This document shows, one piece after another, positions 43,075 through 60,658 of a stretch of 64,000 bases of DNA; position 1 is the stretch's first letter, and each line of letters starts with the position of its first letter. Made by a program: the position numbers and the translations under genes. The notes beneath the pieces were generated by a model, which ran no database searches, was not told the origin of the DNA, and was given only the letters and a program-made list of their open reading frames with translations. Source of the DNA: Pseudomonadales bacterium (GTDB taxonomy: Bacteria; Pseudomonadota; Gammaproteobacteria; Pseudomonadales; JAHRWD01); the NCBI GenBank assembly GCA_029210125.1, contig JARGPR010000009.1, positions 62,001 through 126,000 on the forward strand. The letters run 5' to 3'.

Positions 43075-44820
43075 TCATTCAATTAGAGTTCGGTATATGG
43101 ATTCCCACTCCTGTAGAGGGAAAAAATGTCCCCAGTTATCGCTAAATACGGTTTTGCAATTTGGAATTAAGTCGGCCATTGCCTGAGCATGTTCATACGG
43201 AAACAACTCATCCTGTTTTCCGTGCCATAAAATTACGGGTATTTGCAGTTCAGACAGTTTACAACCCCAGGGTCTAAACCCCGCGGTCAGGTCTCGCGCA
43301 TAAATGTAAGGATTACGAGTAGCTGCATCTTGAATATTCTGCAGTCGAATACGGTTGATCCTCGGGTCCTGATGTAACCGTTTGTCCGCGGAGTTTGTCT
43401 TGCTTTTGTATTCGCTAAGCATCTCCTCTGGGTTAGCAAGCAATTTTGAGTAGTTATGCTCTAGTTGCTTTAGCACCATTGATGGGAGGTAGCGGGCTAC
43501 GCTGGTTAAGAATCGATGTATGGTCCCAACCTTTATTCCTTTGGGTAGTTCTTCAACAGGCATCTGTGCAGCAATAAGTCCAAGTTTAATAGTCCGGTCA
43601 GCCGTTATAGCGGCAAATGCTGTTGCAAAGGGTGCACCGGCGGAAAGCCCAGCTACGTGAAAGCGATCGATCTCTAGCTTATCTACCAGCTGCAGAACAT
43701 CATTTATCGTGGCTAGCAAATTAATTTCGTGTGTTGAACAGGACTGACCAACGCCCGGACGTTCAGGGATTATCAACCGAATACCAAGGCTGGGCAACAG
43801 AGTTTCATCCTCAGGTTTATCATTTCGAGACCCGAACAAATGGTGGAATAAAACAACCGGTAAGCCGTTTCGAGGGCCGTAATCGCCATAACTCATGGTG
43901 CGGCCGTCCGTCAGGGTGATGGCGTTTGAGGTTGTATCAGCTTCAGCCTGTCTATTGCTGGCTTGGGTATTCCTGTCGTTAAGAATATTCATCCACAGTG
44001 CCGGGCCGCTATACACCAACGATACCAGTTGCGCTTGCCGAGTCGTGTTGGGTTTTGTGAATAATTTTTTTATTTGGGTGCGTACTGTGTTTAAGGAGCA
44101 ATTTTTTTCCGCTGCGATCTGCTCCGGCGCGAGCCCCTGGGCAAGATAGGCAGCGACCTCAGCTTCAGATTGGGTAAGGCCATGGGTTTTGATTAGAGCC
44201 ATCGCCAATTCATCAACCCTGCTTTCGTGGTTCAGGAACAGCACGGCTGCTTGCATGGCGGTATTGTTCTTTTCCGGATGCCGGGGAACCACAAGAATGG
44301 TGCGTATCACACCATGCCGGGCTTTTAGGGTTACCGTAGAGGCCTTATTAGTCTCTAGTGTTCGCGCTACGGCAGTCAAAATATCCTTTTTAAGCGATTG
44401 CTCTAAAGTTAACGCATATGTGGCTTTGAAGGGTAGGTTAACTCCCTCGACCAACATCCCCTTTGCTGAATGATTGACCTCCAGTAACTCCAGGGTATTT
44501 GAATAGGTATTCGATAACAGGCATACAGGTAACGGAAGATCAAAAAATGAAACCGACGCTGAAAAGGGTTGAGTTTCCGTTAATTTCTGTTGCTTGCCGA
44601 TCATATTGATCGCTTGCTCAAGGTGCGGTGCAACCTCATCCAGCAGTTCAGTGCTGAGCATTCCCTTGCTGGAACTGTTCAGATGCTCTTGATCGGTTAT
44701 TTCAAAACCACCGAGGATGTGATCATCCCGGGGTGTCAGGCCCTGGTACAGATGGGGTGTCTGGATCTTTTCATAGATGAGGGCAACTATCGCTGCCGCA
44801 TCAATCTCTTTTTTTTTCAA
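43075..44820 (-). CDS. LuxR-type HTH regulator fused to an alpha/beta hydrolase (copy 2)
   Basis: 581-residue paralogue of the 39902-41656 protein with the same three-part layout: sensor region (about 85-200), LuxR HTH (about 213-265, GLTQSEAEVAAYLAQG) and hydrolase (about 300-581). The triad is intact: GLSAGA with Ser393, GKQDELF with Asp537, WGHFF with His565. N-terminal regions differ more than the HTH and hydrolase parts, which suggests different inputs. It is convergent with the AlkC gene (57 bp gap). Confidence 0.93.
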   Translation of the reverse strand: MKKKEIDAAAIVALIYEKIQTPHLYQGLTPRDDHILGGFEITDQEHLNSSSKGMLSTELLDEVAPHLEQAINMIGKQQKLTETQPFSASVSFFDLPLPVCLLSNTYSNTLELLEVNHSAKGMLVEGVNLPFKATYALTLEQSLKKDILTAVARTLETNKASTVTLKARHGVIRTILVVPRHPEKNNTAMQAAVLFLNHESRVDELAMALIKTHGLTQSEAEVAAYLAQGLAPEQIAAEKNCSLNTVRTQIKKLFTKPNTTRQAQLVSLVYSGPALWMNILNDRNTQASNRQAEADTTSNAITLTDGRTMSYGDYGPRNGLPVVLFHHLFGSRNDKPEDETLLPSLGIRLIIPERPGVGQSCSTHEINLLATINDVLQLVDKLEIDRFHVAGLSAGAPFATAFAAITADRTIKLGLIAAQMPVEELPKGIKVGTIHRFLTSVARYLPSMVLKQLEHNYSKLLANPEEMLSEYKSKTNSADKRLHQDPRINRIRLQNIQDAATRNPYIYARDLTAGFRPWGCKLSELQIPVILWHGKQDELFPYEHAQAMADLIPNCKTVFSDNWGHFFPLQEWESIYRTLIE

Positions 44821-45092: not shown

Positions 45093-47414
45093 ATGCGAAA
45101 ATTAAATAAGGGGTCGTTAGCCCTGATTTGTTCGATTCTTTTGTCTGCCTGTGGTGGTGGGGGCAGTGGCGGGGGAGGTACGAGTACGACATCAACCAGC
45201 TTAAAAGGGGTAGCGGCTGCGGGCGCTGCGATTGTGGGTACAGTTACAGTTAAGGGATCTTTGGATAACACCAAGTCTGCCCTTATTGAAGCCGATGGTT
45301 CCTACGATGTGGATGTAACCGGGTTAACCGCCCCATATCGATTGCGAGCTGTCGGAACCGTTGGCGGAAAAACCTACAAATTGCACTCCTATGCAGAGGC
45401 GTCCGACCTCGGTAACACCGTCAATATTACACCGTTTACCGATCTGATTATTGCCAACGCTGCTGGCCAGATTGCTGCAGCTTACTTCGATGAGGCCACA
45501 CCAACGGACCTGGACCCGGCAGAAATTGATGACCAGGAAGCTGCATTGCAAGTCAAGCTGCAGTCTGTATTTGATGCGGTAGGAGTGGGGGCGGCGATTA
45601 ACCTGCTAAATTCGACCTTCAGCGCCGACCATTCCGGCCTTGATGCGGCTCTGGATATTATTCGCATTGAGCAAACCAGCTCAAACATCGTCACCATTAC
45701 TAATTTGATAGAAAGTACGACTATTTCAGATGACATACTAGATGCTGACGATAATTCTGACGTACTGGAGGTCACCGATACTACCGCCATTAATGGAGCG
45801 GTAACAGATACTCAGGCAATCGTCGCCATCTTCGACGCACTTACTGCTGCATTTGCTAACGGTTTGCCAACACAGGCATCGATTGAGAACTATTTCGCCG
45901 CAGATTTTTCTGACGAAGACAGCTCCAAGGGTTTGTGGCTAACCGATATTACAACCGACCCAAATATTGTGGGTTTGAGTTTCGGTAATATCGTTGTGTC
46001 GGAGCTGGATACCACGATGGGTACAGCGACGGTGACTGTTTACTTCTCCATTGATGGGGTAGTCGATCCTGAACCTGCAACCTGGTTCGTCGCCAAAGAC
46101 GCTACTTTGGGCTGGCAGATTCGTGGCGATCAGAGGATTGTGGACACCTATTTTTCTTTCCACTGCAATGATTACGATGGTGATGCCGGCTATCCTGGAG
46201 AGTGTGGGATTAATACTCAATTCTGGGATGAAGACTTTACCAACAATGGTACGGGTGGTGCGCCCATTGCCTCCGGCACCGTTAGCATCATAGATGGCAG
46301 CGATGGCGTTACCATTAAAGATGTGATTTACCTGGGAACACCGTCGGGCACGGCTCCCGGTGATGTACAGGTCTATAACGAAGCAACGGGCGGGTATCAA
46401 GGTGATTACAAAGCCTTCGGTTCAGGGCTTGGTGAAATCGCTTCAAGCATTTTTGCAACTGGAGATATTATTCAATACGACCTGTATACCGAAGCGCTGG
46501 ATATTACCACAACCACTACTCCTCAAATTGCATCCGCTGCAACGGCGGTTGCAAGCTATAGGGATACGCTGCTGTTCGCCCCTTCAGAAGTATTAAAAAT
46601 ACCTTCAGCGACTACTGCGACCAAGAGTGCTATGGCAGCTTTCGAGCCAGGAGACAGTTTGACTATTGCATGGACCCTGCAAGACGGTACGCGTAACGAC
46701 GAAATTCTGATTCAGGTGAGTGATACCCTGGGTAATCGTATAGAAATATGGCAAGAGACCTGGGGCAGTAGCGACACCAGTATAACGGTGGCATCCGCAG
46801 CACTGAACGCAGCGGCTGCGACCAGTGCAGGTCTTGATGCGAACGCCACCAGTTATGAACTAAGGGTTCGCGTCTACGCACAAGATACCAGCACGGGGCA
46901 GAGTCATTCCAGAGACTATACAGCACAAATTCCTGGGCCCGCGGCTACCGGTGGCGGTGGTTCCGGAACTACCCTTGCCTGTAACTACGAATCCGGTTGG
47001 GATGATGCTAACGATCAACCCGCTACTTTTAATAGCTACACGGATTTCCTGGCTGTAGTGGCGGATTGTGGCGGCGCTCTTACGATTGTTGACGCAGATA
47101 TCATAGGCAGCTGGGTTGATAGCGATACGGATGCTGGCGTGGTTTACGCAGAAACTGTTGTCCTTAATGCCGATTATACGATGGCATGGAATGCTACCGA
47201 AGATGGAGTGATCATCGAATCGGGCTCGGGTACCTGGAGTCTCACAAATAATATTGTCATACTGGAAGATGGTGTGGGCCGTCAGGCCTTGGTTGTCACC
47301 GCAAGTGGTATGAAGGCCTATTCTGAGGATTCTAACTGGACGCCACCGTCAGACCTTGTGTTTGACGGTACTGCTGATGGTGAGATATGGACAGATTACT
47401 CGGTGAAACAATAG
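45093..47414 (+). CDS. Large surface/periplasmic lipoprotein
   Basis: 773 residues starting with a lipoprotein signal (SLALICSILLSACGG; lipid Cys at residue 20), followed by a Gly-rich tether. Residues about 37-110 look like a carboxypeptidase-regulatory or pre-peptidase Ig-like domain (GSYDVDVTGLTAPYRL). The middle (about 230-620) is strand-rich, Asp/Thr-rich and without a catalytic signature; the last 130 residues resemble a lipocalin-like domain (IIGSWVDSDTDAGVVYAETVVLNADYT). Substrate unknown. It ends at a perfect 17-bp terminator. Confidence 0.88.
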   Translation: MRKLNKGSLALICSILLSACGGGGSGGGGTSTTSTSLKGVAAAGAAIVGTVTVKGSLDNTKSALIEADGSYDVDVTGLTAPYRLRAVGTVGGKTYKLHSYAEASDLGNTVNITPFTDLIIANAAGQIAAAYFDEATPTDLDPAEIDDQEAALQVKLQSVFDAVGVGAAINLLNSTFSADHSGLDAALDIIRIEQTSSNIVTITNLIESTTISDDILDADDNSDVLEVTDTTAINGAVTDTQAIVAIFDALTAAFANGLPTQASIENYFAADFSDEDSSKGLWLTDITTDPNIVGLSFGNIVVSELDTTMGTATVTVYFSIDGVVDPEPATWFVAKDATLGWQIRGDQRIVDTYFSFHCNDYDGDAGYPGECGINTQFWDEDFTNNGTGGAPIASGTVSIIDGSDGVTIKDVIYLGTPSGTAPGDVQVYNEATGGYQGDYKAFGSGLGEIASSIFATGDIIQYDLYTEALDITTTTTPQIASAATAVASYRDTLLFAPSEVLKIPSATTATKSAMAAFEPGDSLTIAWTLQDGTRNDEILIQVSDTLGNRIEIWQETWGSSDTSITVASAALNAAAATSAGLDANATSYELRVRVYAQDTSTGQSHSRDYTAQIPGPAATGGGGSGTTLACNYESGWDDANDQPATFNSYTDFLAVVADCGGALTIVDADIIGSWVDSDTDAGVVYAETVVLNADYTMAWNATEDGVIIESGSGTWSLTNNIVILEDGVGRQALVVTASGMKAYSEDSNWTPPSDLVFDGTADGEIWTDYSVKQ

Positions 47415-48474: not shown

Positions 48475-50058
48475 CTAAATAGTTCCGCTCACAATAGATT
48501 CAAAGGCTGTCATATTATCCAGATTACCAAGGCCGTGCCCAGGGAACAGGGTTGAAAAATCACCCTGTTCGCCATGCAGTGCCATGTAATTTAGCAAGAT
48601 GGTGTTTACCAGCAGATTGACATTGTTGGCAGCCGGAGATGAAGCGGTTTCTACCGAAGCATCAGCGCGCATATAACCAAGTTGTTGATGCATGGCCTGC
48701 AGCTCTGGTGTGCCACCTATCAGATTTGCACGACCACCGGGGTTGTAAACCAAAAAGAATGGCGCTGCGGTTGAGCTATTGTCAGAGGTCCAAACGCCTT
48801 TTCCACGCCCATCTACCGATTCATCAATCATACCGTTGCTGGAAAGCGAACCATCACTGAATACATACATCATCAGTGGTACGCCTGCCCGTGCTGCGTA
48901 CTCAAGACATGCCCCCATGCATCTGCCGGCCCGCAGGTCTCTGAGTTCGCCAGTAGAGCGGTTGCCCGTATGATAATCGTACCCACCCATGGTGATAGTG
49001 CCCGCACCCGCGTATCCATTGATGACGAGCTTCATCACCGAAGCCGCTTTACGGAATTCCCTATCAGCCGCGAACTCCGCTTCACTGAAAATCCCTGCGC
49101 TGCCTACAATATCAGGGTCTAGTGAAGGGTCCAGTTCCGATGGGTTGCCAAACCGATCGGCGATATCAGCACTTTTTACGTAACCACATTCCACCAGCTG
49201 TTTAACAATCAGATCATTGGTGAGTTGAGTGTTCACTTGGCCTAGTTTGCTATTGCTGATTCGGTAGATCGACTCCATTACCGCAACGGCATCTTCTTGA
49301 TTCAATAACCCAATCAGATCACCAACATCCACCAGGCCGGTTACATCACTTGGTCGGTCTATTTTTGCAGGCCGACCTTCAGGATCAACCAGCATCGGTG
49401 GTGCCATTGAGTTACCGCCGGATTCGGAGCTAGATGAGCCGATCAGGTTAAGTAGCGAGCCATCGGCACCGGCGGCTCTGATACCGTACATCGGGTTGTG
49501 GGGATTATTACCGGTATCGTTGTCCGAGCGGGCCGGGATCACTGCACCATTGATATTGGAGCGAGTTCCTATTGAGGTGCGCTCCAGCATACCCCTTAAA
49601 AAACCGCTATCGGAATGAAATGCCAGACCCAGCTCAGTATTGATAAAGTCATTGAGTCCGGTGGTTGGATTGGCTATTGGTGGAATCATATCCCCCGGCA
49701 GTCCCAGCTTGTTGTATCCGGCGGTGCTCAGGAAATCGAGTTGTCCACCCCGTTGGCCAACCAATACATTAGAGCCTGCCAGACTGGCTCCACCCGCCAG
49801 ATCAAAACAGATGAAGGGGATTTTACCCGCTCCCTGGGTAGCAATACCGCAGTTTGATTTTAAATCTTCCATGTCGCCAGACAGGGCTGCCATTGCATTA
49901 CGGGGGTTGGCAAACATGCTGAACATTGAGGTACCGATGGCAGTACCCATCCCCGCCATAAAACCCTGTGATATAAAATCACGGCGTGAAACTGGGCGTT
50001 TATGGGCGGCGTGTCGGAGCGGTTCATCAACCGGAAGAACTTTCGGTATCCTGGACAT
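48475..50058 (-). CDS. DUF1501 family Tat-exported protein
   Basis: 527 residues with a twin-arginine signal (SRRDFI, about 24-29, then a hydrophobic stretch), so probably exported folded. The DUF1501 fold, related to sulfatases and alkaline phosphatases, is supported by FICFDLAGGASLAGSN, GGYDYHTG and MYVFSDGSLSSNG near residue 403. Metal-ligand identity is unclear and no activity is known for the family. It is the last gene of the minus-strand three-gene unit with 50122-52722 and 52725-53963, though a 63-bp gap separates it from the LamG gene. Confidence 0.9.
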   Translation of the reverse strand: MSRIPKVLPVDEPLRHAAHKRPVSRRDFISQGFMAGMGTAIGTSMFSMFANPRNAMAALSGDMEDLKSNCGIATQGAGKIPFICFDLAGGASLAGSNVLVGQRGGQLDFLSTAGYNKLGLPGDMIPPIANPTTGLNDFINTELGLAFHSDSGFLRGMLERTSIGTRSNINGAVIPARSDNDTGNNPHNPMYGIRAAGADGSLLNLIGSSSSESGGNSMAPPMLVDPEGRPAKIDRPSDVTGLVDVGDLIGLLNQEDAVAVMESIYRISNSKLGQVNTQLTNDLIVKQLVECGYVKSADIADRFGNPSELDPSLDPDIVGSAGIFSEAEFAADREFRKAASVMKLVINGYAGAGTITMGGYDYHTGNRSTGELRDLRAGRCMGACLEYAARAGVPLMMYVFSDGSLSSNGMIDESVDGRGKGVWTSDNSSTAAPFFLVYNPGGRANLIGGTPELQAMHQQLGYMRADASVETASSPAANNVNLLVNTILLNYMALHGEQGDFSTLFPGHGLGNLDNMTAFESIVSGTI

Positions 50059-50121
50059 GGTTAATTCCTGCCTGTGGAGTGAGTGTAAAACAACTGAATC
50101 ATTGCGTTATTGAACCAACCG

Positions 50122-52722
50122 TTATTGAACCAGTATAGCTGCGCTACCTAAGGTTGAAGCGCACATCGCTTTGACAATGGTTTTAGTCCGGGTGCTGTCG
50201 CAACCGGTTGGACAGGCGCTGGTCAGACGATCGAATAAATTGTTGGCATTGGTGCCAGCGGGACCTATCAGTTCAGCTTTCAGAGTTGCTAGATCGATGG
50301 TTGATGTAAGCGCAGTGCCTGAGGCATCTGGCAGACCAACCATTTTATTAAAGATCTGAGTGACGACCTGATTCTTCTCAGAGGAGTCGCCGCTGCCGAA
50401 TGCGGTCGCGACATTTTGTTCGAAACCAAATCCGGCACCGAAAAAATTATCCCGCAATGTTGAATCTTCGACCAACTCATTACAGTAACGAATTGCCAGC
50501 TGTGTGACCGCCATCTGGTGTGTGGAGAGGAAGGTGTCGATATCTTCCTGTGGCGGTAATTGCTGCATGATGGTCTGATAGGTGGTTGCAACCGCTGATG
50601 TAGTTTGATCGACGCCGGTTACGGCGGCCATGGAGGCATTGATTTCAGCGAAGGTGCGCACGCCGATGTCCGATATTGGCGCCAAGTCAGTTGGGGGGGG
50701 CGGTAGTACCGTCGTCGCGTCGACCTCGGGGCCGAGGTGGCTGCCGAGCACCTCAAAAGTCAGAAAGAACTGATCGGAAGCCGGCCCGTTTTCCAGGCTG
50801 ATAATGGTTCCCATGGGAGACATTACCTGGCCTGAGTCACCGTAGTCGCTATCGTTGAGCGTGATGTCCAAATTACTGTAGCTTTGGCCCGCAATCGCTT
50901 CTTTGCCGTTGATACCGATCCGCATTCCTTTCACGCTGATATTGCCGATTGTGGCTGAGGTGTCGAGGCTGAGAAAAAATGGTTTGTTGAACAGGTAGCT
51001 GTAACTATCGAACTGGCTGACCTCAAAAATGATATAACTTTCAGGTACATTGACCAGGTGAGCAACACTAAATAATAGGTAGAAACGTTGTCCGACACCG
51101 ACATTAAAGTTCTGTGTGATTTGATCAACAGTAAGCGCACGATTGTGGATGGCGACTAATCGGATATTGCCCTGCCATACCCGGTCATTGGAGGGTTCGT
51201 TTCCAAGAGCCAGTGCAAAGCTATCATCCCAACCGGTTAGGGTACCACCGGCTTCGGAATCCGCTGTGGTTCTCAGGGTGCCATTTACGTATATCTGACG
51301 TCCGTTTATCGGATCATAATTCACGACAACATGTTGCAGGGTGGCCTGAAGTACTTCATCGGCATCGGCGGTTGAAACAGCCGGTTCGCCATTGGCTCCT
51401 GTAGTGCTGCTGCGGTTAAGCGCATCGTAGTTGTAGAGGGTTTGTCCGAGGGTAAAGTTACGAGCACTGGACCCACCAGAGTAACTAATAATTCCGGCGG
51501 GACCTTCCTGCGTGACGTTAGCAGGTGCAACCCAGGCTTCGATAGAGTATTCCCCGGTTGCGGTAATGAGATCATGTAACTTTTTACTGTTACCGGTAGT
51601 GCCCTGGGCTTTGCCGTTGGGTACTTCAATACCCCAACCACCGACCCAGCTATAGTCGCCGGTAAGCGTCAAGTCGAGAGCTGGCTCGACACCACTTGTA
51701 TCAAAGGCCGTATTTCCTGATCCCGTTTTGAATTGGTAAAGCGCGATTACGTTGGTCTCGTATCGGCCACCGCCACTGGCAACTATGCCATCCCCGACCA
51801 GAGTCAGGGCTTTACTAAGTACTAAATCTGGGTCGATTGCAGTGGTTGATATACCCGCGCTGAAAGCTTCAATCGCGCCGACCAGTTCATCAGCGTCGTC
51901 GTCGCAGACTCCGCTCCAACAGTTATGGAACTCGCTGCGTAATCGAATTACGAGCCGTGAATTCTCAGCATTATCAAGGGATATTTTGTTTTTAGCTGCA
52001 TCGTAGGCAACGTCCAGATCAGCACTTGCAAAGAAAGGTGCCTGGGGCGTAGCTGCGCTATCGGAGTGGCATGAAGCGCAATTGGCAGCCAGTATTGGAT
52101 GAATGGTCGCGCCAAAGTTGCTGGCGTCGGCTGGGAAAGTTTTAGTGGCTCCAGCGTCCTGTAGAGTGGGCGCCTGCAATACAATCGAATTGGTAGTAGA
52201 ACCACTGCCACCAGCCCAGGCGGTGATATAAGCGGTCATTATATCGCCGCATGCGCTGTTGCTGGATAACCAGCAATTGTGCCCGGAAGTTACCTTGGTT
52301 ACCAACCGCGAATCGCCTGGTGCGGTCAGATCAACCAGTGGATTGGTAACGGAATAGGCTGTGTTGATGTCATCGCTTTGAACGAAGGTAGGGGTTTGCC
52401 CGCCGGTGCTATGACAGCTGCCACAGCGGTTTTCTGAAATCAGGTTGTCCCAGACATTCAATTTGAATTGCTGGACATCAGCGGTGCTTGGTGCCGGGCC
52501 AGTATAGTTGGTGGCTACTGTTGTGGTGGTGTTTGGCAGTGATGCGTTGTCTTCTCCACCACCTGCGGTACAGCCACCAAGAAATGTGATTGCGGCGGCA
52601 ACGGCGATAAATTTCTTACTCCGTATTGTGGCTTCCAAAACGGTTCCAAAAGTTGTTTCCAAAAAAAGAGTAGACGCTTTTTTAACGGGTGTATTCGGTA
52701 CAGACATTGTTGAGTAGTTCAT
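50122..52722 (-). CDS. LamG-domain lipoprotein with two CxxCH (possible haem) motifs
   Basis: 866 residues. The AGGGGG ribosome site sits 6 bases before the ATG, fixing this start although the signal region is unusually late (hydrophobic at about 38-50, lipobox FLGGC with Cys51). Two repeated units follow, each with CxxCH (Cys100-His104 and Cys215-His219) and a downstream HNCW-x-C element. A LamG/concanavalin-like lectin domain occupies about 325-545 (YSIEAWVAP, RQIYVNGTL). The rest is unrecognised. Whether haem is bound is inferred only from CxxCH. It starts 3 bases after the upstream gene, so the pair is clearly coupled. Confidence 0.9.
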   Translation of the reverse strand: MNYSTMSVPNTPVKKASTLFLETTFGTVLEATIRSKKFIAVAAAITFLGGCTAGGGEDNASLPNTTTTVATNYTGPAPSTADVQQFKLNVWDNLISENRCGSCHSTGGQTPTFVQSDDINTAYSVTNPLVDLTAPGDSRLVTKVTSGHNCWLSSNSACGDIMTAYITAWAGGSGSTTNSIVLQAPTLQDAGATKTFPADASNFGATIHPILAANCASCHSDSAATPQAPFFASADLDVAYDAAKNKISLDNAENSRLVIRLRSEFHNCWSGVCDDDADELVGAIEAFSAGISTTAIDPDLVLSKALTLVGDGIVASGGGRYETNVIALYQFKTGSGNTAFDTSGVEPALDLTLTGDYSWVGGWGIEVPNGKAQGTTGNSKKLHDLITATGEYSIEAWVAPANVTQEGPAGIISYSGGSSARNFTLGQTLYNYDALNRSSTTGANGEPAVSTADADEVLQATLQHVVVNYDPINGRQIYVNGTLRTTADSEAGGTLTGWDDSFALALGNEPSNDRVWQGNIRLVAIHNRALTVDQITQNFNVGVGQRFYLLFSVAHLVNVPESYIIFEVSQFDSYSYLFNKPFFLSLDTSATIGNISVKGMRIGINGKEAIAGQSYSNLDITLNDSDYGDSGQVMSPMGTIISLENGPASDQFFLTFEVLGSHLGPEVDATTVLPPPPTDLAPISDIGVRTFAEINASMAAVTGVDQTTSAVATTYQTIMQQLPPQEDIDTFLSTHQMAVTQLAIRYCNELVEDSTLRDNFFGAGFGFEQNVATAFGSGDSSEKNQVVTQIFNKMVGLPDASGTALTSTIDLATLKAELIGPAGTNANNLFDRLTSACPTGCDSTRTKTIVKAMCASTLGSAAILVQ

Positions 52723-52724
52723 CG

Positions 52725-53963
52725 TTATCCCCCTATGCAGTAGGCAGCAGACTCAGCAAATACCTGTTTGAGGTTATAGCCGGATTTGAATGAGGTGGTC
52801 ATCGAGCTGATTTGAGCACGGTCGGTAGCATCTACAGCAGGCCGTAAACACACGGATTTGAATACTTTTTTGACCTGGCAACTGGCAAAGGCTTCGCTGT
52901 TTGCCAGCTCCTGGCCCATCGATTTTGCACCATTGCCCCCCGATGGTAGTCCAGTATCCCATCCCAGTAGCGAATTTGGGCCATTGCGCCAGTAGTTGTC
53001 CCAGCGGTCGTCGAGGGTGACGTATCCCGGTTTAAAGTTATCGTTGTTGTTGTGGTATTTTTTTTGCACCTGGGTTCCGGTAACCGAATCCACTGCCCCC
53101 ACATCATTGTAGACAAGTTGGCCATTGTTCCCTTCCGGGTCATTGGTTACGTCGTGGGCAAATTCATAGTAGGCGAAGGCCTGGGTTAAGGGGTCCATGC
53201 CGGCATGGCAGCCAAGGCAGTTGTTCATGAAGATGCGGCTATCACCCCCGGGGCTTCGTGACACATCCTGCCGAATTCGGTCGCTGGAACGTGTGACATC
53301 CTTGAGTGGCTCGAGATCGGTACAGAGCTGGTTCATCAGGGTAAACCGAAACATCGCTCGATTCGTGCCATCAATAAAAAATGCTTTGGCAGCGGCTCGG
53401 GTTGTGGTGACGCCGGCGGCTGCAGAGGCAGGGAAATTGCTTACCGAGGACTGGGTGGTTTCGACCAACCCGGTGGTCATATCGATATTTTGCGCTTCGA
53501 TCTGCTGGTAATGGGTATTGTTGGTGGTGGAGTAGGGCGTTAATCCCAGTGACGGGTCGGCTACATAAAGAATGTCATCGTAGAGAATTTTTCTAAAGTC
53601 ATAGTCATCCCTAACAATGCCAATGACAGTTGCGGTGTAATCGTTTAAATCGGCGAAAACAGTTTGTGCTTCGTTAGTCCAGGGTGTGACCAGATTTTTT
53701 AACGTGACGGAGTAAAAGGCCGGGTTGTTCATAGCTACCGTAGCGGCCCCTAAAACATCTCCGCTAGCTACTAATGTTTCCATATTATTGAGAACCGTTT
53801 CGCTGGGTGGAACACCGGCAAGTCGATCGTGCATCCGTTTGGCTTGTTCGCGACTGCCTCCAAAGCTCGGTTGAGATAACAGCACGCTGCACAATAGTAG
53901 CAATACGGTCGAAGTTGTTTTTTTGCCAATCTCTTTAGAGGGATTATATCTGCCGAGCTTCAT
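52725..53963 (-). CDS. DUF1588/DUF1585-like exported protein with a CxxCH motif
   Basis: 412 residues with a signal peptide (LLLLCSVLLSQPSFGGS). Residues about 185-262 resemble DUF1588 (RAAAKAFFIDGTNRAMFRF, and NNCLGCHAGMDPLTQAF with Cys249 and His253), and the end resembles DUF1585 (ELANSEAFASCQVKKVFKS). These domains are best known from large planctomycete cytochrome proteins; this is a short relative without the DUF1587/1592/1595 core. First gene of the minus-strand unit, divergent from 54255-56927. Confidence 0.87.
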   Translation of the reverse strand: MKLGRYNPSKEIGKKTTSTVLLLLCSVLLSQPSFGGSREQAKRMHDRLAGVPPSETVLNNMETLVASGDVLGAATVAMNNPAFYSVTLKNLVTPWTNEAQTVFADLNDYTATVIGIVRDDYDFRKILYDDILYVADPSLGLTPYSTTNNTHYQQIEAQNIDMTTGLVETTQSSVSNFPASAAAGVTTTRAAAKAFFIDGTNRAMFRFTLMNQLCTDLEPLKDVTRSSDRIRQDVSRSPGGDSRIFMNNCLGCHAGMDPLTQAFAYYEFAHDVTNDPEGNNGQLVYNDVGAVDSVTGTQVQKKYHNNNDNFKPGYVTLDDRWDNYWRNGPNSLLGWDTGLPSGGNGAKSMGQELANSEAFASCQVKKVFKSVCLRPAVDATDRAQISSMTTSFKSGYNLKQVFAESAAYCIGG

Positions 53964-54254
53964 AGCGTTGGCTCCTGAATTTTCTGATACCGGGTTGCCG
54001 ATATCGGTTTGCCCAATATGTGGCGTATAGGCAATAAGAATACAAACAAAATATTGAAAAGCATGTGGTTAGGGCGGAATAGGAGATCTGCCTCACACAT
54101 TGCGGGGTGGGTTGTTGGGGAATGTATACATAGTTCACAAAAAAACGGTAATTGGCTGGCGCTATGAAGCTGAGCAGTTACCCTTTTAAACTAGCAACAA
54201 CCTTTTAGCACTTTCATAGCAGCAAAACATAAGCTTAGCAGCAAGGCACGGGCC
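53964..54254. promoter_or_regulatory. Divergent intergenic region between two CxxCH genes
   Basis: The only non-coding stretch between the minus-strand unit and the HzsA-related gene. It must contain both promoters. No clear -10/-35 pair or hairpin stands out to me. Confidence 0.4.
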
Positions 54255-56927
54255 GTGATCTATTCCATAAAAAATAAAACCCTATCGTTATTAGTGCTGG
54301 TACCTTTTTTATGGATGATTTCTGGCTGTGAAGAGGGTTTTGGGGTTACAAACTCTGACCAGCAACCGGATGCGGTGGCGGTTGATTTTGCCATCGCCTA
54401 TGTGAAACGGCCGCTTCCCGTCGATGAAGATGAGGATCCCATATCACAGGATTTACGAGAAGTAGTGGAGTTTAATCCTGGCGCTGAACTGCGCATTCGT
54501 GATCGCGCAGCGGTTTCGGCGGCAGATCGAGTTATCACCGCAGGTATTTTTACCGCCGGTGAACTATACGACGTAAAGGATCTTCAGCCTTCATACGATG
54601 GTGAATCCATATTATTTTCAATGCGAGCACCGGATATTCCAGGCGCTGACGACGAAGATCAGCCGAAGTGGAATATCTGGGAATATAACGCGGAAACCGA
54701 TAGCGTTCGGCGCATTATCAGCTCGGATATATCCGCCGAGGCCGGACACGATATTTCACCGAACTACCTGCCCGACGGACGCATACTGTTTTCATCCAGC
54801 CGCCAGCGCCAATCAAAAGCCATCTTGCTAGATGAGAGTAAACCCCAGTTCACCGCATCCGATGAACGTCGTCGTGAAGACGCCATGATGCTGCACGTAA
54901 TGAATTCGGATGGTAGCAATATTCGCCAGATCACCTTCAACCCAAGCCATGATCTAGATCCTACGGTACTCAATGATGGCACCATTTTGTATAGCCGATG
55001 GGACCATGTTGCAAATCTGAATCAGATGAATCTGTATACCTTAAACCCCGATGGTACTGAACATAGCCTGCTGTATGGCCGAAACAGCCACAATACCGGC
55101 ACCAACAATTCAGCGGTGCAATTTGTTGGCGCTCGACAGTCCCAGAATGGCGATATTTTGGCGATGTTGCAGCCTACATCAAGCAGCCATTATGGTGGTG
55201 ATATTGTAAAAATCGACACCGAGAACTTTATTGATAATAGCCAATCGGTACGTGGATATGGCGGCGCAGCGACAACGGCACAGTTGACGCTATTTGATGA
55301 CACGGTTAGAACCGACAATGCGCCTTCTCCCGGTGGTCGATATAGCTCGTTTTTCCCACTCTACGATGGTACGGATCGAGTGCTTGCTAGTTGGAGCCAG
55401 TGTGTGCTGGAAAAGACAGATCCGGTGACCATGGTTGTTTCGGTCTTGATCTGTAATGACGAAAATCTTGCGGATCCCGATGCCGTTGAGGCATCTCCCA
55501 ATTACAGTATCTGGATGATTGATACTGCGGCGGATACACGATTGCCGGTGGTCATTGCAGAACCGAAAACGTTCTTTAGCGATATCGTCATTATGAAGGA
55601 GCGGACTTTTCCACCTATCATTGCCGATAAACAAGGCGGTGTGGAGCTGGATCAAGGTTTGGTAGATGACGAACTAGCTGTGGTGCATATTCGTAGCGTC
55701 TATGATATCGACGGGGTTGATACTACAAGTGGTGGCATTGCAGCGTTGGCAGATCCCCTTATTACCAACGCTGATGCAAGGGCCGCGCGGTTTTTACGTA
55801 TCGTCAAATCGGTTGCGATTCCTGACGATGATCTGGTTGACCTGAACGGTCGGGATTTTGGGCGCAGCACCGCACAGCTGATGCGTGAAATTATTGGTTA
55901 TGTACCAATTGAGCCGGATGGGTCGGTAAAAATGAAGGTGCCAGCGAACGTGCCATTGGCCTTTAGCGTATTGGACAAAAGCGGCAAACGTATCACCGCT
56001 CGACATAGAAACTGGATTCAGTTAATGCCCGGTGAAGAGCTGGAGTGTGTAGGCTGCCATCAGGCAAATAGTGCACTACCCCATGGTAGGGTGGATGCGG
56101 AACCACTTTCTGTAAATGCGGGCGCACCCACCAGTGGTGCGCAGTTCCCGAATACCGAGCCGGCGCTTCTGGCCGATATCGGTGAAAGCATGGCCACAAC
56201 CTATGCGCGTATTAACGGAGTACGTTCTCCGACGGTGGATCCGGCTTATGTTGATGACTGGACTGACCCAGCGGTGCGGGCTAAGGATGCATCATTTTCC
56301 TATTCGTATCAGGATCTTACGACGGATGTGCCAACTTCCGCAGCCTGTCAGACAAGCTGGAATAACCTTTGCCGGATTACCATCAACTATCCGGAACAGA
56401 TCCACCCAATCTGGCAAGTCGTGCGGCAAATTCTTGATGTCAACGGCATGCTAGTTGCGGATAACAGCTGCCAGAGTTGCCACAACTCGCAGGATGAGAT
56501 GGGTAACCCGCAGGTTCCTGCCGCTCAGCTTGATCTACGTGATGGCCCATCAACAGATGAACCGGAGCACCTGACCAGCTACCGTGAATTAATGTTTAAC
56601 GATAACCAGGTTGTGCTGGATATGGGGGTACTGGTGGATCAAATGACGCCAGTGTTAGATGCCAATGGCGACCCCGTATTTGAGGTCGATGCTAATGGCG
56701 ATCTGATTCTGGATATCAACGGTGACCCAATCCCAGTGATGCAAACCACCAATGTTGCTGCATCAATGTCTACAGCAGGCGCCAACTCCAGTGCTCGGTT
56801 TTACAGTCTGTTTGAAAGCGGTGGTAGCCATGCTGGGTATCTCAACGATGCCGAATTGCGTTTGATCTATGAATGGCTGGATATTGGTGGCCAGTATTAC
56901 AACAATCCATTTAGTGCACCTCAGTAG
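54255..56927 (+). CDS. HzsA-related lipoprotein with PD40 repeats and two CxxCH motifs
   Basis: 890 residues. GTG start with an AAGG site 8 bases upstream; lipobox ISGCEE (signal 10-25). Residues about 110-300 contain TolB-like PD40 repeats (SYDGESILFSMRAPD, NYLPDGRILFSSSRQ, LNDGTILYSRWDH) forming a likely propeller. Two CxxCH motifs follow (Cys598-His602 in ECVGCHQ and Cys739-His743 in CQSCHN). Three Asp/Asn/Gly calcium-loop-like units (DANGD, DANGD, DINGD) are near 800-825. The family shares the name of the hydrazine synthase alpha subunit but lacks its other partners here, so hydrazine synthesis is not implied. Divergent from the DUF1588-like gene across 291 bp. Confidence 0.88.
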   Translation: MIYSIKNKTLSLLVLVPFLWMISGCEEGFGVTNSDQQPDAVAVDFAIAYVKRPLPVDEDEDPISQDLREVVEFNPGAELRIRDRAAVSAADRVITAGIFTAGELYDVKDLQPSYDGESILFSMRAPDIPGADDEDQPKWNIWEYNAETDSVRRIISSDISAEAGHDISPNYLPDGRILFSSSRQRQSKAILLDESKPQFTASDERRREDAMMLHVMNSDGSNIRQITFNPSHDLDPTVLNDGTILYSRWDHVANLNQMNLYTLNPDGTEHSLLYGRNSHNTGTNNSAVQFVGARQSQNGDILAMLQPTSSSHYGGDIVKIDTENFIDNSQSVRGYGGAATTAQLTLFDDTVRTDNAPSPGGRYSSFFPLYDGTDRVLASWSQCVLEKTDPVTMVVSVLICNDENLADPDAVEASPNYSIWMIDTAADTRLPVVIAEPKTFFSDIVIMKERTFPPIIADKQGGVELDQGLVDDELAVVHIRSVYDIDGVDTTSGGIAALADPLITNADARAARFLRIVKSVAIPDDDLVDLNGRDFGRSTAQLMREIIGYVPIEPDGSVKMKVPANVPLAFSVLDKSGKRITARHRNWIQLMPGEELECVGCHQANSALPHGRVDAEPLSVNAGAPTSGAQFPNTEPALLADIGESMATTYARINGVRSPTVDPAYVDDWTDPAVRAKDASFSYSYQDLTTDVPTSAACQTSWNNLCRITINYPEQIHPIWQVVRQILDVNGMLVADNSCQSCHNSQDEMGNPQVPAAQLDLRDGPSTDEPEHLTSYRELMFNDNQVVLDMGVLVDQMTPVLDANGDPVFEVDANGDLILDINGDPIPVMQTTNVAASMSTAGANSSARFYSLFESGGSHAGYLNDAELRLIYEWLDIGGQYYNNPFSAPQ

Positions 56928-57094
56928 CCTCAATGAAATCGTTTCGATAGCGCTCAAGTTTGCGACTGATTTCACAACTTGATTGGTCCCGGAGATGGTT
57001 TGGGAAATAGTTCGGGAAATTGGGAACCAGTTCCAGATAATCCATCTACACTTATCCATACTTTGAGTCATAGATTAATGAGAGTTTAAACAGC

Positions 57095-57934
57095 GTGACC
57101 AGGATTCGGCTGATGGGAGCATTGCTCTCGATCAGAAAGCAGAAAACCAAAAATATTGGGGTAGGGTTAGCGTTACTCGTTGCGATTTTTACCGGTTCAA
57201 CTTGCGCAGAAACGGTTGCAGATGGCGGTTTCGAGTTGAATGACAATGCCGAAATCATCAGGTCTGCAAACTGGGTTGAGGTCAATGACCCCTATATTGA
57301 ATTTCATACCGGGCCAGGGGCAAGGTATCCGATTGTTTATGTCGTAGAGAGGGGAGATTCAGTAGAAATTCTAAAGGAAAAAACCGGTTGGTTTAAGGTC
57401 GTGACGGCGACCGGCGAAAGCGGCTGGGTTAGTCGTTCACAAATGGAGAAAACGCTGTTACCGACCGGAACGGAATTTACAGTAACGGATGTCAGTGCAG
57501 GTGACTTTGGCAAACGAACCTTTGAGGGCGGTGTTGGTATAGGTGATTTTGAGGGGGCCAGGTTGATGTCAATATATCTGGACTACCGCTTTTCAGAAAC
57601 CCTGTCCGCAGAGGTTTCGCTTTATCAAATAAACGGGAATTTTTCGAGTAGCCAGCTAGTCTCGGTGGGATTTATAAATCAGCCATTTAGCAACTGGAGC
57701 GTTTCACCCTTTATGTTTCTCGGAACGGGTGCGGTACAAACAGACCCAAAAACCGCATTGGTTCAGAGTGAACAAAGAACAGATCAAATTGTGACCGTCG
57801 GCTTGGGTGTGAAAGCATACCTTACCAAACGATTCATATTGCGAGCTGAATACAAAGAACACATTGTCTTAACCAACCGAAGTAAAAACGAGAAAATTGG
57901 CGAATGGAAAACTGGCTTCAGCGTATTTTTTTGA
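57095..57934 (+). CDS. SH3-domain outer-membrane beta-barrel protein
   Basis: 279 residues. An N-terminal signal (IGVGLALLVAIFTGSTCAE) is followed by a bacterial SH3 domain (about 50-112, IEFHTGPGARYPIVYVVERGD and WVSRSQME), then a beta-barrel-like region (MSIYLDYRFSETLSAEVSLYQ and a C-terminal GEWKTGFSVFF ending in Phe, as for outer-membrane proteins). It overlaps the next gene by one base (TGATG). SH3 domains usually bind peptidoglycan, so it may bridge wall and outer membrane; this is an inference. Confidence 0.83.
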   Translation: MTRIRLMGALLSIRKQKTKNIGVGLALLVAIFTGSTCAETVADGGFELNDNAEIIRSANWVEVNDPYIEFHTGPGARYPIVYVVERGDSVEILKEKTGWFKVVTATGESGWVSRSQMEKTLLPTGTEFTVTDVSAGDFGKRTFEGGVGIGDFEGARLMSIYLDYRFSETLSAEVSLYQINGNFSSSQLVSVGFINQPFSNWSVSPFMFLGTGAVQTDPKTALVQSEQRTDQIVTVGLGVKAYLTKRFILRAEYKEHIVLTNRSKNEKIGEWKTGFSVFF

Positions 57935-58593
57935 TGGCAGTACGAAATCAAATTTCAGCTATTTTGGCGGCGATGTTGATTTCGTTCTCTATGTTCAGTT
58001 ATGGGGAAAATCTGGAGTGGTCGGTTGCATCGGATCAAACAACAGCAGTTTTCGAACCCGAGGTAGAAAGGGCAGAAATCAACAAACCCGATATCGATAC
58101 TGAAGATTTCGAATTTGGCGTTTCATACGGATTGATGAGCGTAGAAGATTTTGGTGTAAGTAGTGTACTTGCTGCCAGGCTTGCCTATCACATCAGTGAA
58201 TATATATTTGCTGAAGCGGTTTACGGGCAGACTGATACGCAAGAAACTAGTTTTGAAGTGCTGAATGGTACGAGCTTATTAACCGAAGATCAGAGGCAAT
58301 ACCAGTACTATAATTTATCGGTAGGTTATAACCTGTTACCTGGAGAAGTGTTTTTTCTTGAGGATAAAACCTTTGTTTCCGAGTTGTATGTTGTGATGGG
58401 TGCAGGTAGTACCGAGTTTGCAGGGGATCAGTATTTTACAGTGAATGTAGGCATGGGCTATCGATTATTACTAACCGATGAAATAGCTCTTCATGTAGAT
58501 GTGCGTGACCATATGCTGGATATTGATTTTTTGGGGATCGATAAAACCAGCCACAACCTTGAAGTTACCGGTGGTTTAACTGTGTTTTTTTGA
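57934..58593 (+). CDS. Outer-membrane beta-barrel domain protein
   Basis: 219 residues from the ATG at 57934, chosen over the ATG at 57904 because it gives a clean signal peptide (LAAMLISFSMFSYG) and a TGATG overlap with the preceding stop. The remaining sequence has short alternating strands (FEFGVSYGLMSVEDFG, LAARLAYHISEYIFAEAVYG) and ends GGLTVFF, typical of 8-stranded barrels. It is similar in layout to the barrel of the preceding protein, so the two may be paralogous and act together. Confidence 0.85.
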   Translation: MAVRNQISAILAAMLISFSMFSYGENLEWSVASDQTTAVFEPEVERAEINKPDIDTEDFEFGVSYGLMSVEDFGVSSVLAARLAYHISEYIFAEAVYGQTDTQETSFEVLNGTSLLTEDQRQYQYYNLSVGYNLLPGEVFFLEDKTFVSELYVVMGAGSTEFAGDQYFTVNVGMGYRLLLTDEIALHVDVRDHMLDIDFLGIDKTSHNLEVTGGLTVFF

Positions 58594-58682
58594 GGTTGTT
58601 TTCTTGAGCTAATTGTTACAGCTCTGGTGTACGATTTTTGCCCGAATAACTTTTCAAATGTGATGATTGATAAGGTGTCAAA

Positions 58683-59198
58683 ATGAAATTTTTAAAATTT
58701 TCAATGAAGGTTAAAACTACTTTATTGCTAGTTTCTTGTTTGGTGTTAAGTCCTATGGGGTTTTCTGCACCTAAGGCCGCAGTCGCCGCTCCGGATTTTA
58801 CATTGAAGAGTAGTACCGGCGAAAATCAAAGATTGAGCGAGCTAAAGGGCGAAGTTGTCATGATTAATTTCTGGGCATCCTGGTGTGGCCCATGCCGACA
58901 AGAAATGCCTGAGTTAGCTGCGATTCAGAAAAAATATCAGGACCTTGGTTTTACGGTATTGGGTGTAAATGTAGAGGAAGACTCATCTAAGGCCAACGAA
59001 CTGCTGGCTGAGAATCCGGTTAATTTTCCGATTCTGTATGACACTGAAAACAAAGTGACCAAACTGTTCAGGGTTGATGCCATGCCAAGCACTATTTTAG
59101 TCGACCGAGATGGAAATATGCGGTATTTGCATAAAGGATATAAACCTGGATATGAAGATACCTATGCGCAGCAGGTCAGAACACTGGTGCGTGAATAG
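58683..59198 (+). CDS. TlpA-like periplasmic thioredoxin
   Basis: 171-residue thiol-disulfide protein. Signal peptide (LLLVSCLVLSPMGFSA), then a thioredoxin/AhpC-TSA fold with the redox site FWASWCGPCRQEMPEL (Cys68, Cys71) and a cis-Pro loop (DAMPSTILVDRDG). In the known TlpA/ResA group such proteins reduce disulfides in the periplasm, for instance on haem-binding cysteines of apocytochromes, which would fit the CxxCH proteins upstream. AAGG ribosome site before the ATG. Confidence 0.93.
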   Translation: MKFLKFSMKVKTTLLLVSCLVLSPMGFSAPKAAVAAPDFTLKSSTGENQRLSELKGEVVMINFWASWCGPCRQEMPELAAIQKKYQDLGFTVLGVNVEEDSSKANELLAENPVNFPILYDTENKVTKLFRVDAMPSTILVDRDGNMRYLHKGYKPGYEDTYAQQVRTLVRE

Positions 59199-59243
59199 CA
59201 CCTGACAGTAATTTGTAAAAGATAAACAATTAGACGATTACCC

Positions 59244-59486
59244 GTGAACAAATTCCGGCTTCCATTTAAAATCCATATTTTATTTCTGCTAGTTGGTTTT
59301 GCGCTTGCTGGGTGTTCAGCACCAAAGCCGTGGGTCAAGCCCTATGAGCGGAATAACCTCGCTGATCCCATCATGAGTTTTGATAGAGATGGTGTAGAAG
59401 GCAGTTACATGCACCATGTACATCAGGCTCGAGAGTCCGCCCGGGGTGCTGAAGGCGGAAGTGGCGGAGGTTGTGGTTGCAACTAG
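59244..59486 (+). CDS. DUF4266 small lipoprotein with Gly/Cys tail
   Basis: 80 residues. GTG start; lipobox LAGCSAP (lipid Cys at residue 24). A short PWVKPYERNNLADPIM motif and HHVHQARE follow, then a Gly-rich tail ending GGSGGGCGCN with two cysteines at the extreme C-terminus. His and Cys density suggests metal or redox chemistry, but this is inferred. Sits between a TlpA thioredoxin and DUF3570; this trio is a recurring association. The DUF3570 start is 18 bases downstream. Confidence 0.88.
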   Translation: MNKFRLPFKIHILFLLVGFALAGCSAPKPWVKPYERNNLADPIMSFDRDGVEGSYMHHVHQARESARGAEGGSGGGCGCN

Positions 59487-59503
59487 ATCATAAAATCCCA
59501 GGC

Positions 59504-60658
59504 GTGATAAAGGATAGAAATTCCATAAACCCCTTTGCCGCATGGCTAGCGGTGATCTGTTTGGTATTTGCCGTTGCCAGTATTGAAGCAGCAGTATTAC
59601 CTGAAGATCGAACTGACCTGCTGTACCACTCCTATAGCGGTGGTGGTGTGACCATTGACGGGCCCTCTCTGTTGGTTCGAAAAGGCTTATCTGATTCCGT
59701 ATCCGTTATCGCAAATTATTATGTCGACACCGTTAGCAGTGCATCGATTGATGTGGTTTCTACCGCTAGCGCTTATGATGAAGAACGAACCGAAACCAGT
59801 ATTGGTGTTGATTATCTTCACGATAAAACACTGATCAATTTTGGTTATACAGGCAGTGAAGAAAATGATTACTCGGCGAGTTCATTTCGGTTTTCGATCA
59901 GCCAGGATTTTTTCGGAGACTTGACCAACCTGTCGATTGGCTATTCTCAAGGTTCAGATGAAGTTGGAAAGACCGGAGATCTCAGTTTTAAAAAGGATGC
60001 ATCAAGCAGAAACTATCAATTTAATCTCTCCCAAATTCTGACAAAAAACCTGATCGTAAATACCACCTTTGAGACCATCACCAATCAGGGTTTTCTGAAC
60101 AACCCCTACCGAACTGTGCGCTATCTGGATGCAAGCGTTGGGCTTGGTTATAGCTACGAAGCTGAAAAATACCCCGAGACACGCACCAGCGACGCCATTG
60201 CGATTCGTATGATGTATTACTTGCAATATCGTGCTTCGCTAATGTTGGAGTACCGTTATTTTACCGATACCTGGAATATTGAAGCAGACAACGTAACCAT
60301 CCGCTATACCCATCCGGTTGGTGAACACTGGATTTTTGAAACCAATGTCCGAGTATATTCACAGACCGGGGCCGATTTTTATTCCGATCTTTACGCGTAT
60401 TCTGGCTCCCAGACATTCCTCGCGCGAGATAAAGAGTTAAGTGCCTTTAGCTCCCAAAGGATTGGATTTGGGGTGACCTATCAATACCCGCTGAAATCCT
60501 CTTTTGTGGAAAAAATCAGCCTGAATCTCAAAGTTGATCACCTGATGTTTGACTACGACGATTTTCGCAATGTCACCGCTGGGGGTTTGCCGGGTCAAGA
60601 ACCTCTGTACAGTTTCTCAGCTAACGTAGTTCGGTTCTTCTTTTCTGCGTGGTATTAG
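59504..60658 (+). CDS. DUF3570 outer-membrane beta-barrel protein
   Basis: 384 residues from GTG 59504, which gives a signal peptide (FAAWLAVICLVFAVASIEA) directly after the DUF4266 stop; the earlier GTG at 59471 overlaps that gene by 16 bases. The mature part is strand-rich with aromatic girdle residues (TDLLYHSYSGGGVTIDGPS, LIVNTTFETITN) and ends VRFFFSAWY, an outer-membrane C-terminal signature. Function unknown; usually found with DUF4266. Confidence 0.9.
   Translation: MIKDRNSINPFAAWLAVICLVFAVASIEAAVLPEDRTDLLYHSYSGGGVTIDGPSLLVRKGLSDSVSVIANYYVDTVSSASIDVVSTASAYDEERTETSIGVDYLHDKTLINFGYTGSEENDYSASSFRFSISQDFFGDLTNLSIGYSQGSDEVGKTGDLSFKKDASSRNYQFNLSQILTKNLIVNTTFETITNQGFLNNPYRTVRYLDASVGLGYSYEAEKYPETRTSDAIAIRMMYYLQYRASLMLEYRYFTDTWNIEADNVTIRYTHPVGEHWIFETNVRVYSQTGADFYSDLYAYSGSQTFLARDKELSAFSSQRIGFGVTYQYPLKSSFVEKISLNLKVDHLMFDYDDFRNVTAGGLPGQEPLYSFSANVVRFFFSAWY

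Follow-up and report, generated by a model that had tools for sequence, protein, structure and literature searches.

What is a block of nine genes, all of them encoding proteins of exported or outer-membrane type, kept together for, and what does it work with? The question is raised by positions 48475-60658 of the window, i.e., the whole 64,000-nucleotide stretch of contig JARGPR010000009.1 (assembly GCA_029210125.1, positions 62,001 to 126,000) from a Pseudomonadales bacterium, in which the genes p1-p3 face the genes p4-p7, the DUF4266 gene (p7b) and the DUF3570 gene p8 (Table 1). A preliminary note on this DNA, made from its letters alone (the original prediction), had described the nine as an uncharacterised envelope module and a redox system possibly acting on a polymer. 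The nine open reading frames (ORFs) are present, conserved in relatives and form a co-located unit, but the module was cut off too early, so that two partners, the flavin transferase ApbE and a motor operon of Agl/Glt type, were missed. The nine-gene set and this Glt-type core very probably form one system, and a trans-envelope machine of Agl/Glt type, driven by the proton motive force, probably has its redox-active, outer-membrane head encoded in the window. That this head transfers electrons is rather likely, and that the machine handles a polymer is a tentative proposal, which leaves a polymer-acting redox system as a possible reading. The link between set and motor is well supported, and it suggests a motor-coupled, unstudied redox system at the cell surface, whose cargo and chemistry we infer.

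The distribution of the set was followed in 145 genomes of the same order and in 274 genomes of the class. In the order sample, p3 was found in 32 genomes, p1 in 31, p4 in 41 and DUF3570 in 54. A total of 118 stretches were compared. Of these, 38 were fetched from four p4-only genomes and from 30 further p3-positive genomes (31 without G062, which was left out), and 80 are named loci kept from the at least 557 stretches in which a p1-profile scan found a relative. The complete set lies on one stretch and in one order (p1-p2-p3 facing p4-p5-p6-p7-DUF4266-DUF3570) in 23 of the 30 fetched p3-positive genomes; among the remaining seven, G010, G030, G044, G118, G125 and G132 end at contig ends (G132 additionally has no p7 at its place, and no p4 was found anywhere in the genome of G030), and in G055 the two halves stand apart on the same contig. 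All nine genes also keep this order in 64 of the 80 named loci, the other 16 comprising 12 that hit the end of the contig or stretch, two without p7 (L158 and L161) and two with p3-p2-p1 only (L174 and L178). Separate scattering of the genes in relatives, which would have refuted the original prediction, was looked for, and the outcome did not refute it. To control for synteny, the window genes at 45093, 47945, 60711 and 61435, none of them part of the set, were sought in the 38 stretches: three are confined to a same-genus stretch and one is absent from all 38. The set is not out of place either, as had been thought from its planctomycete-type domains, because relatives of p1 are mostly gammaproteobacterial: 78 of the 80 kept loci (out of the at least 557 stretches with a p1 relative) carry gammaproteobacterial titles, the exceptions being L156 (Candidatus Polarisedimenticolaceae) and L157 (Proteobacteria bacterium), and the genera with loci bearing the set include Marinobacter, Microbulbifer, Alteromonas, Paraglaciecola, Shewanella and Ferrimonas. 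L156 holds the nine-gene set together with core genes, which may reflect a transfer beyond the gammaproteobacteria or a mislabelled bin. L186, titled as a Klebsiella pneumoniae metagenome-assembled genome, also has the nine genes; its title may be wrong, since none of the other 79 titles names an enterobacterium.

What, then, accompanies the set? When 780 flanking ORFs were clustered, the five widest families were ApbE (44 loci) and those labelled c1 (37), c2 (27), c3 (24) and c4 (19), with ExbB (12 loci) and ExbD (7) at lower ranks, among clusters that had no family match or are unannotated. In the genome of the window these genes lie on a different contig (C8), in the order ApbE (51576-52688)-c2-c1-c3-c4-c6-ExbB-ExbD-ExbD-GltG-like, ending at 62282 and preceded by more ORFs on the same strand; inside the window itself ApbE gave no match. 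G046 (L058 and L201) has both halves in succession: the nine genes come first, then ApbE and another pair of barrels, and then c2-c1-c3-c4-c6-ExbB-ExbD-ExbD-GltG. Altogether, p1, c1 and c2 share one stretch in 38 of the 118, and ApbE lies less than 500 bp from a gene of the set on 38 of the 118 (13/38 plus 25/80); both counts are lower bounds, because the stretches span only about 10 kb each way. The core genes occupy one region in L196, L198-L206, L208 and L209, and also in L207, without the second ExbD and the GltG-like gene. Furthermore, p4 and the barrels p5 and p6 accompany the core despite the absence of p1-p3 in L198, L199 (p4 on L075) and L200. The G005 variant (L075 and L199) has a solute-binding protein, ApbE, a p4-like gene, p5, p6, p7, DUF4266, DUF3570 and the whole Glt-type core, without p1-p3 and with a VWA/CoxE-like gene upstream.

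The same association appears in whole-genome counts. With thresholds of E 1e-20 for c3 (53 carriers in the order sample) and E 1e-8 for c1 (52 carriers), both occur in all 32 p3-positive order genomes (hypergeometric 2e-18 and 9e-19, respectively), and p4 and c3 occur together in 38 of 41 genomes, the three misses (G078, G081 and G082) being weak partial matches to p4. At the level of the class, c3 (63 carriers) is present in 33 of the 35 p1-positive genomes (hypergeometric 9e-23), and in 18 of these 33 the two genes are less than 20 kb apart on one contig. The pairing of a redox outer-membrane module with an Agl/Glt-type motor is real and widespread.

As to the identity of the operon as Agl/Glt-type, family searches on L144 give an AglR-type motor protein of the MotA/TolQ/ExbB family (PF01618, 1.4e-28) and two ExbD/TolR-type proteins corresponding to AglQ and AglS (PF02472, 2.6e-18 and 7.8e-17), along with a TonB-like protein whose AgmX/PglI domain is above cut-off, a weak GltE-like tetratricopeptide repeat (TPR) protein and ApbE. 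In the genome of the window, the ExbB-like protein (L196:14600-15274) matches the TolQ model at 8.6e-17, under the equivalog cut-off, and the ExbD/TolR models give 2.0e-4 and 2.1e-8 (L196), also under their cut-offs. In the GltG-like protein of this genome, the C-terminal domain is of AgmX/PglI type (NF033768, 69.5 bits, cut-off 40), while the full-length GltG equivalog gives 38.3 of the 650 bits required. The families c1 and c3 match TPR-type models only. In a search of the PDB, c3 gave nothing at 1e-8, c1 matched mostly designed or consensus TPR proteins and the GltG-like protein had no credible match. The identity of the GltG domain and of the motor is firm, and that of c4 as GltE is weak. 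As for gene order, c3-c4-c6-motor-GltG parallels gltD-E-F-G. The size of c1 is near that of GltC, and the lengths of c1, c3 and c4 are 695, 989 and 235 residues versus 673, 1191 and 471 for GltC, GltD and GltE (Table 1 of PMC3169522). Two further observations concern these families: in G089 (L206 6382-10986, G089:C23) the c1 and c3 matches lie in one frame of 1534-1547 amino acids (aa), a natural fusion, and in G045, G210, G224 and G348 the c3 matches lie within frames of 1478-1565 aa.

A core of this kind has been described before. According to Luciano et al. (2011, PLoS Genet, PMC3169522), gammaproteobacterial clusters hold gltC, D, E and G, aglR, Q and S and a single additional gene, a functional complex to which no function could be given there, and the study posed as a question which building blocks joined this core. 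The partner operon shares with it the ExbB and two ExbD proteins, the GltG-like TonB-type arm and the exported TPR proteins in the order D-E-(F)-G; unlike the core as presented there, it is paired with ApbE and with a nine-gene set of haem, flavin and barrel proteins, and in L144 the GltG-like protein lacks the FHA domain of the Myxococcus xanthus GltG, Pfam giving TonB_N only. Roughly half or more of the core carriers sampled (32/53 in the order and 33/63 in the class) now have a known conserved partner set, which makes the question of 2011 testable through gene removal in set-bearing genera. In the strongest version of the proposal, described below and doubtful on balance, the gammaproteobacterial Agl/Glt core, long unexplained, would be the engine of a redox machine. 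The pairing also connects HzsA-like cytochromes and domains of planctomycete type, together with extracytosolic flavinylation, to one envelope machine. The pairing is undescribed as far as open papers go: no description of the nine-gene set was found in the open-licence PMC literature, a search that did not cover closed papers and hence leaves its absence unproven, and in the main text of a 2025 paper on motor-driven force transducers (PMC12204202) the words GltG and cytochrome are absent.

Table 1. The nine genes of the set and the divergent region between its two halves, in window coordinates
Feature	Position	Strand	Length	Characteristics
p1	48475..50058	-	527 aa	Twin-arginine (Tat)-type signal, RR at 25-26; motif GGYDYH
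p2	50122..52722	-	866 aa	Lipoprotein-type signal (C51); LamG/concanavalin-type domain; two CxxCH
p3	52725..53963	-	412 aa	Exported; one CxxCH
p3-p4 divergent intergenic region	53964..54254	.	291 bp	
p4	54255..56927	+	890 aa	Lipoprotein-type (C25); PD40/TolB-like propeller; HZS_alpha middle domain; two CxxCH
p5	57095..57934	+	279 aa	SH3 domain and outer-membrane barrel; PF08239 2.5e-11
p6	57904..58593	+	229 aa	Outer-membrane beta-barrel; TIGR04565 OMP_myx_plus
p7	58683..59198	+	171 aa	TlpA/ResA-like thioredoxin; CGPC at 68-71; PF08534 4.5e-31
p7b (DUF4266)	59244..59486	+	80 aa	Lipoprotein-type; C-terminus GGGCGCN; PF14086 1.5e-22
p8	59471..60658	+	395 aa	DUF3570 barrel; two relaxed ApbE-type sites (SSAS, STAS); PF12094 1.3e-38

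Which parts of the set could be redox-active? The five CxxCH motifs counted in the original prediction were found at residues 100 and 215 of p2, 249 of p3, and 598 and 739 of p4, and the family calls LamG (PF13385, 6.5e-21), HZS_alpha (PF18582, 3.4e-18), PD40, SH3_3, DUF3570 and DUF4266 were confirmed with Pfam and NCBIfam. The number of motifs is not a matter of chance, because it is kept across full-length relatives: two in 28 of 28 for p2, one in 29 of 29 for p3, and two in 28 of 31 for p4, the other three having three. The Pfam cytochrome c models stay below cut-off for p2 and p4. Proteins shorter than 85% of the query were removed before these conservation counts; the smaller row sets A1, A3, A8 and A9 hold 26 of the 28 full-length p1 rows, 21 of 32 for p4, 15 of 31 for p6 and 14 of 29 for p2, respectively. 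The predicted signal cysteines are kept as well (p2 C51 in 29/29 rows, p4 C25 in 31/32 with a gap in the other, DUF4266 C24 in 30/30), as is R25 of p1 (28/28), and Cys77 and Cys79 of DUF4266 and Cys68 and Cys71 of p7 are near-invariant, in counts that exclude the four p4-only stretches (L075-L078). As for the barrels, p6 scores 152 bits against TIGR04565 (cut-off 60), and p5 lies slightly below the cut-off of the barrel model PF13505 (4.5e-6). Two fixed, simple patterns of FNR or CRP type found no match in the p3-p4 intergenic region of the window, nor in any of 28 such regions. The p2 relative of G068 (L069 7763-9304) is a single frame of 513 aa, versus about 820-920 aa elsewhere, and may be broken.

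The downstream end of the set resembles a published arrangement: DUF3570 is flavinylated by ApbE, and the genes for DUF3570, thioredoxin-like proteins and DUF4266 cluster (Meheust et al., eLife 2021, PMC8238504), as they stand side by side in the window. With those clusters the set shares p7, the C-terminal CxC of DUF4266, the DUF3570 barrel and an ApbE gene nearby or elsewhere; it differs in its SSAS and STAS sites and in its tie to HzsA-like and motor genes. This company argues for a role of p7 other than the one first proposed, the preparation of haem cysteines, which is the weaker explanation. In L046, L158 and L161 there is no p7 at its place while the other genes of the stretch stay. An exact flavinylation site ([S/T]GA[S/T]) occurs among 28 DUF3570 rows at site 1 in six, at site 2 in nine and at either of the two in 13; S92 and S100 of p8 are kept in 28/28 rows, and so is the final Ser of both sites. 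Elsewhere in the order, DUF3570 proteins show the exact first site in 23 of the 26 rows with letters (hand count; L081 and L082 have no letters at that place), and the exact motif is not conserved in any of p1-p7b, with at most two rows per column. Because ApbE is linked to the set, use of the relaxed DUF3570 site for flavinylation is plausible.

Taken together, these components would fit a machine of two parts. The inner part, encoded on C8, would comprise the ExbB/AglR-like and the two ExbD/AglQS-like motor proteins, the GltG-like TonB-type arm, the ApbE flavin transferase and large TPR proteins at the positions of GltC, GltD and GltE; the outer part, encoded in the window, the barrels p5, p6 and p8, the lipoproteins p4, p2 and DUF4266, and the exported p3 and p1. 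Motor and arm may act mechanically on the complex of barrels and lipoproteins via the TPR proteins, p7 may hold the CxC of DUF4266 reduced, and flavinylated DUF3570 may give electrons to, or take them from, the haems of p4, p2 and p3. By means of LamG and the propeller, the redox head could bind an exported surface polymer and modify or crosslink it chemically as this polymer is moved or laid down by the machine; the model here is the Agl-Nfs machine, which works on the spore coat (PMC3858216). That machine shares with the present one the motor, the Glt-like transducer and outer-membrane proteins acting on a surface polymer, and differs in that no haem or flavin proteins are mentioned, as far as the extracts of that paper go. 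The strongest version of the proposal, in which a proton-driven motor is mechanically coupled to a haem, flavin and dithiol head and both moves and oxidises or reduces its cargo at once, is speculative and on balance doubtful.

Several points weigh against reading the set as the head of this machine. Regarding the association, the hypergeometric values disregard relatedness, and 21 of the 145 order genomes have c3 but no p3, as 30 of the 274 class genomes have c3 but no p1, so the core can do without the set. There are also p1 carriers without c3: G177 (one contig, 100% complete) has none at E 1e-20, three candidates per genome having been scored, and G145 has a p1 fragment match without it. 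In L174 and L178, p3-p2-p1 stand without adjoining p4-p8. On the side of the operon, TPR and motor families are common, c4 gets 43 bits from the GltE model (cut-off 225) and higher scores from other TPR models, and the assignment of c1 and c3 to GltC and GltD is inferred from size, order and position. On the side of the chemistry, both DUF3570 sites of the window lack the Gly of the flavinylation motif, and 15 of the 28 DUF3570 rows have no exact site at all.

Among the other explanations, the one that survives best, unlikely as it is, is carbohydrate oxidation in the style of planctomycete PSCyt/LamG systems, with LamG as the glycan binder, an esterase- or sulfatase-like activity for p1 and the haems as electron acceptors. 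PSCyt domains are paired with DUF1501/DUF1552 proteins, names that are both absent from the searched main text of the PSCyt/LamG paper. That work reports that PSCyt genes of Verrucomicrobia carry LamG, frequently have sulfatase neighbours and are of entirely unknown function (mSphere 2017, PMC5615132), and its genes share with the window the LamG and CxxCH-type domains, including PSCyt3 (DUF1588), beside conserved uncharacterised genes; the set differs in that the family scores fall short and the domains are spread over separate genes. The DUF1501 and DUF1588/1585 assignments of the original prediction did not hold at family level. The former family (PF07394) gives no match to p1 up to E 10, and p1 has no other match in Pfam or NCBIfam; profile comparison with DUF1501 proteins (hhalign) yields a probability of 21.8 and E 0.001 in the N-terminal part only, and the G[FYW]DxH motif of p1 recurs in 9 of the 11 DUF1501 loci compared. 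The sole PF07394 match of the genome sits on contig C31, and canonical DUF1501 was discarded as a tracker of the set, being present in 6 of 18 p3-positive and 32 of 77 p3-negative genomes (hand count). No credible relative of the p1 profile was found in the PDB by sequence. The AlphaFold model of p1, of moderate confidence (pLDDT 71.5), has phosphatases, sulfatases and related enzymes as its top Foldseek rows (best E 0.019, none at E 0.001) and aligns with 3q3q (VIA) over 244 residues at a Z of 12.5 and a root-mean-square deviation of 4.5, so that p1 may have an alkaline-phosphatase-superfamily-like fold, distantly DUF1501-like. For p3, PF07627 gives E 0.24 and 12.2 bits (cut-off 27), and the profile-profile check proposed for this 412-residue protein did reveal a weak DUF1588/1585 likeness (three proteins, hhalign probability 24, E 8e-4, in a C-terminal stretch), but one short of the family cut-off. 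Both names denote distant resemblances only. Other candidates for p3 were rejected: its profile found weak matches to cytochrome c6 and an aminotransferase and nothing better among solved structures, and its model (pLDDT 79.1) had four Foldseek matches, every one at E 9. Besides the likeness of the p1 model to phosphatases and sulfatases, the weak DUF1588/1585 likeness of p3 and the company of LamG and CxxCH in p2, carbohydrate oxidation is favoured by a glycoside hydrolase family 2 gene after p4 in L200 and by a flanking cluster of seven loci encoding a UgpC/MalK-like ATPase (below cut-offs). Against it, the five widest flanking clusters are ApbE and core rather than carbohydrate genes, a weak argument given that most of the 780 ORFs are unannotated, and the motor is left unexplained. 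The gene of L200 just mentioned (G029, L200 17123-19267) lies beside the Glt-type core.

Slightly less likely is that the set works by itself, as an electron conduit of the outer membrane or as a redox enzyme outside the cell, with the motor and TPR operon a neighbour that has a separate task. This would agree with the frequency of the core without the set, with the published DUF3570/DUF4266/thioredoxin/ApbE clusters, for which no proton motor is mentioned as far as the extracts of PMC8238504 go, and with the fact that the sole motor gene found in the window is a normal TolQ of Tol-Pal, the core being on a different contig here; nevertheless, the co-occurrence in 32/32 and 33/35 genomes, the shared stretches and the persistence of p4, p5 and p6 with the core where p1-p3 are missing speak for one system. 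A gammaproteobacterial motility or adhesion machine, with p4 and p2 as surface adhesins and structural haems, is quite improbable: the motor and GltG-like arm families and the TIGR04565 barrels would suit it, but ApbE, DUF4266 and the thioredoxin would be left unexplained, and the account in PMC3169522 has gliding undocumented in most core carriers and the core insufficient for it. Last, it is highly improbable that p4 performs hydrazine or other nitrogen redox chemistry as a homologue of HzsA. In its favour are the HZS_alpha domain, three stretches (propeller-type, middle and C-terminal) that match hydrazine synthase alpha in collinear order (5c2v, the middle one alone near significance) and the proposal of hydrazine-synthase-like proteins as a broader enzyme family (FEMS Microbiol Lett 2023, PMC10732223). 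Against it, p4 scores 43.4 bits against the 800 of the equivalog NF052339, its gene partners differ, and the other proteins of the set have no Hzs family match in Pfam or NCBIfam, no genome-wide search for HzsB or HzsC having been made.

The preferred reading, a redox head on a motor-driven machine, places the engine outside the window, whose remaining genes can be described briefly. The tol-pal region noted beside the set is present, with TolQ (18398-19102) and TolB (20350-21681) above cut-off, but it is normal and separate from the set. The plus-strand gene at 45093-47414 encodes a lipoprotein-like protein of 773 aa with no Pfam family at cut-off and no match in the 38 same-order stretches, and the minus-strand gene at 43075-44820 encodes a 581-aa fusion of regulator and hydrolase, in which a LuxR-type helix-turn-helix is joined to an alpha/beta hydrolase.

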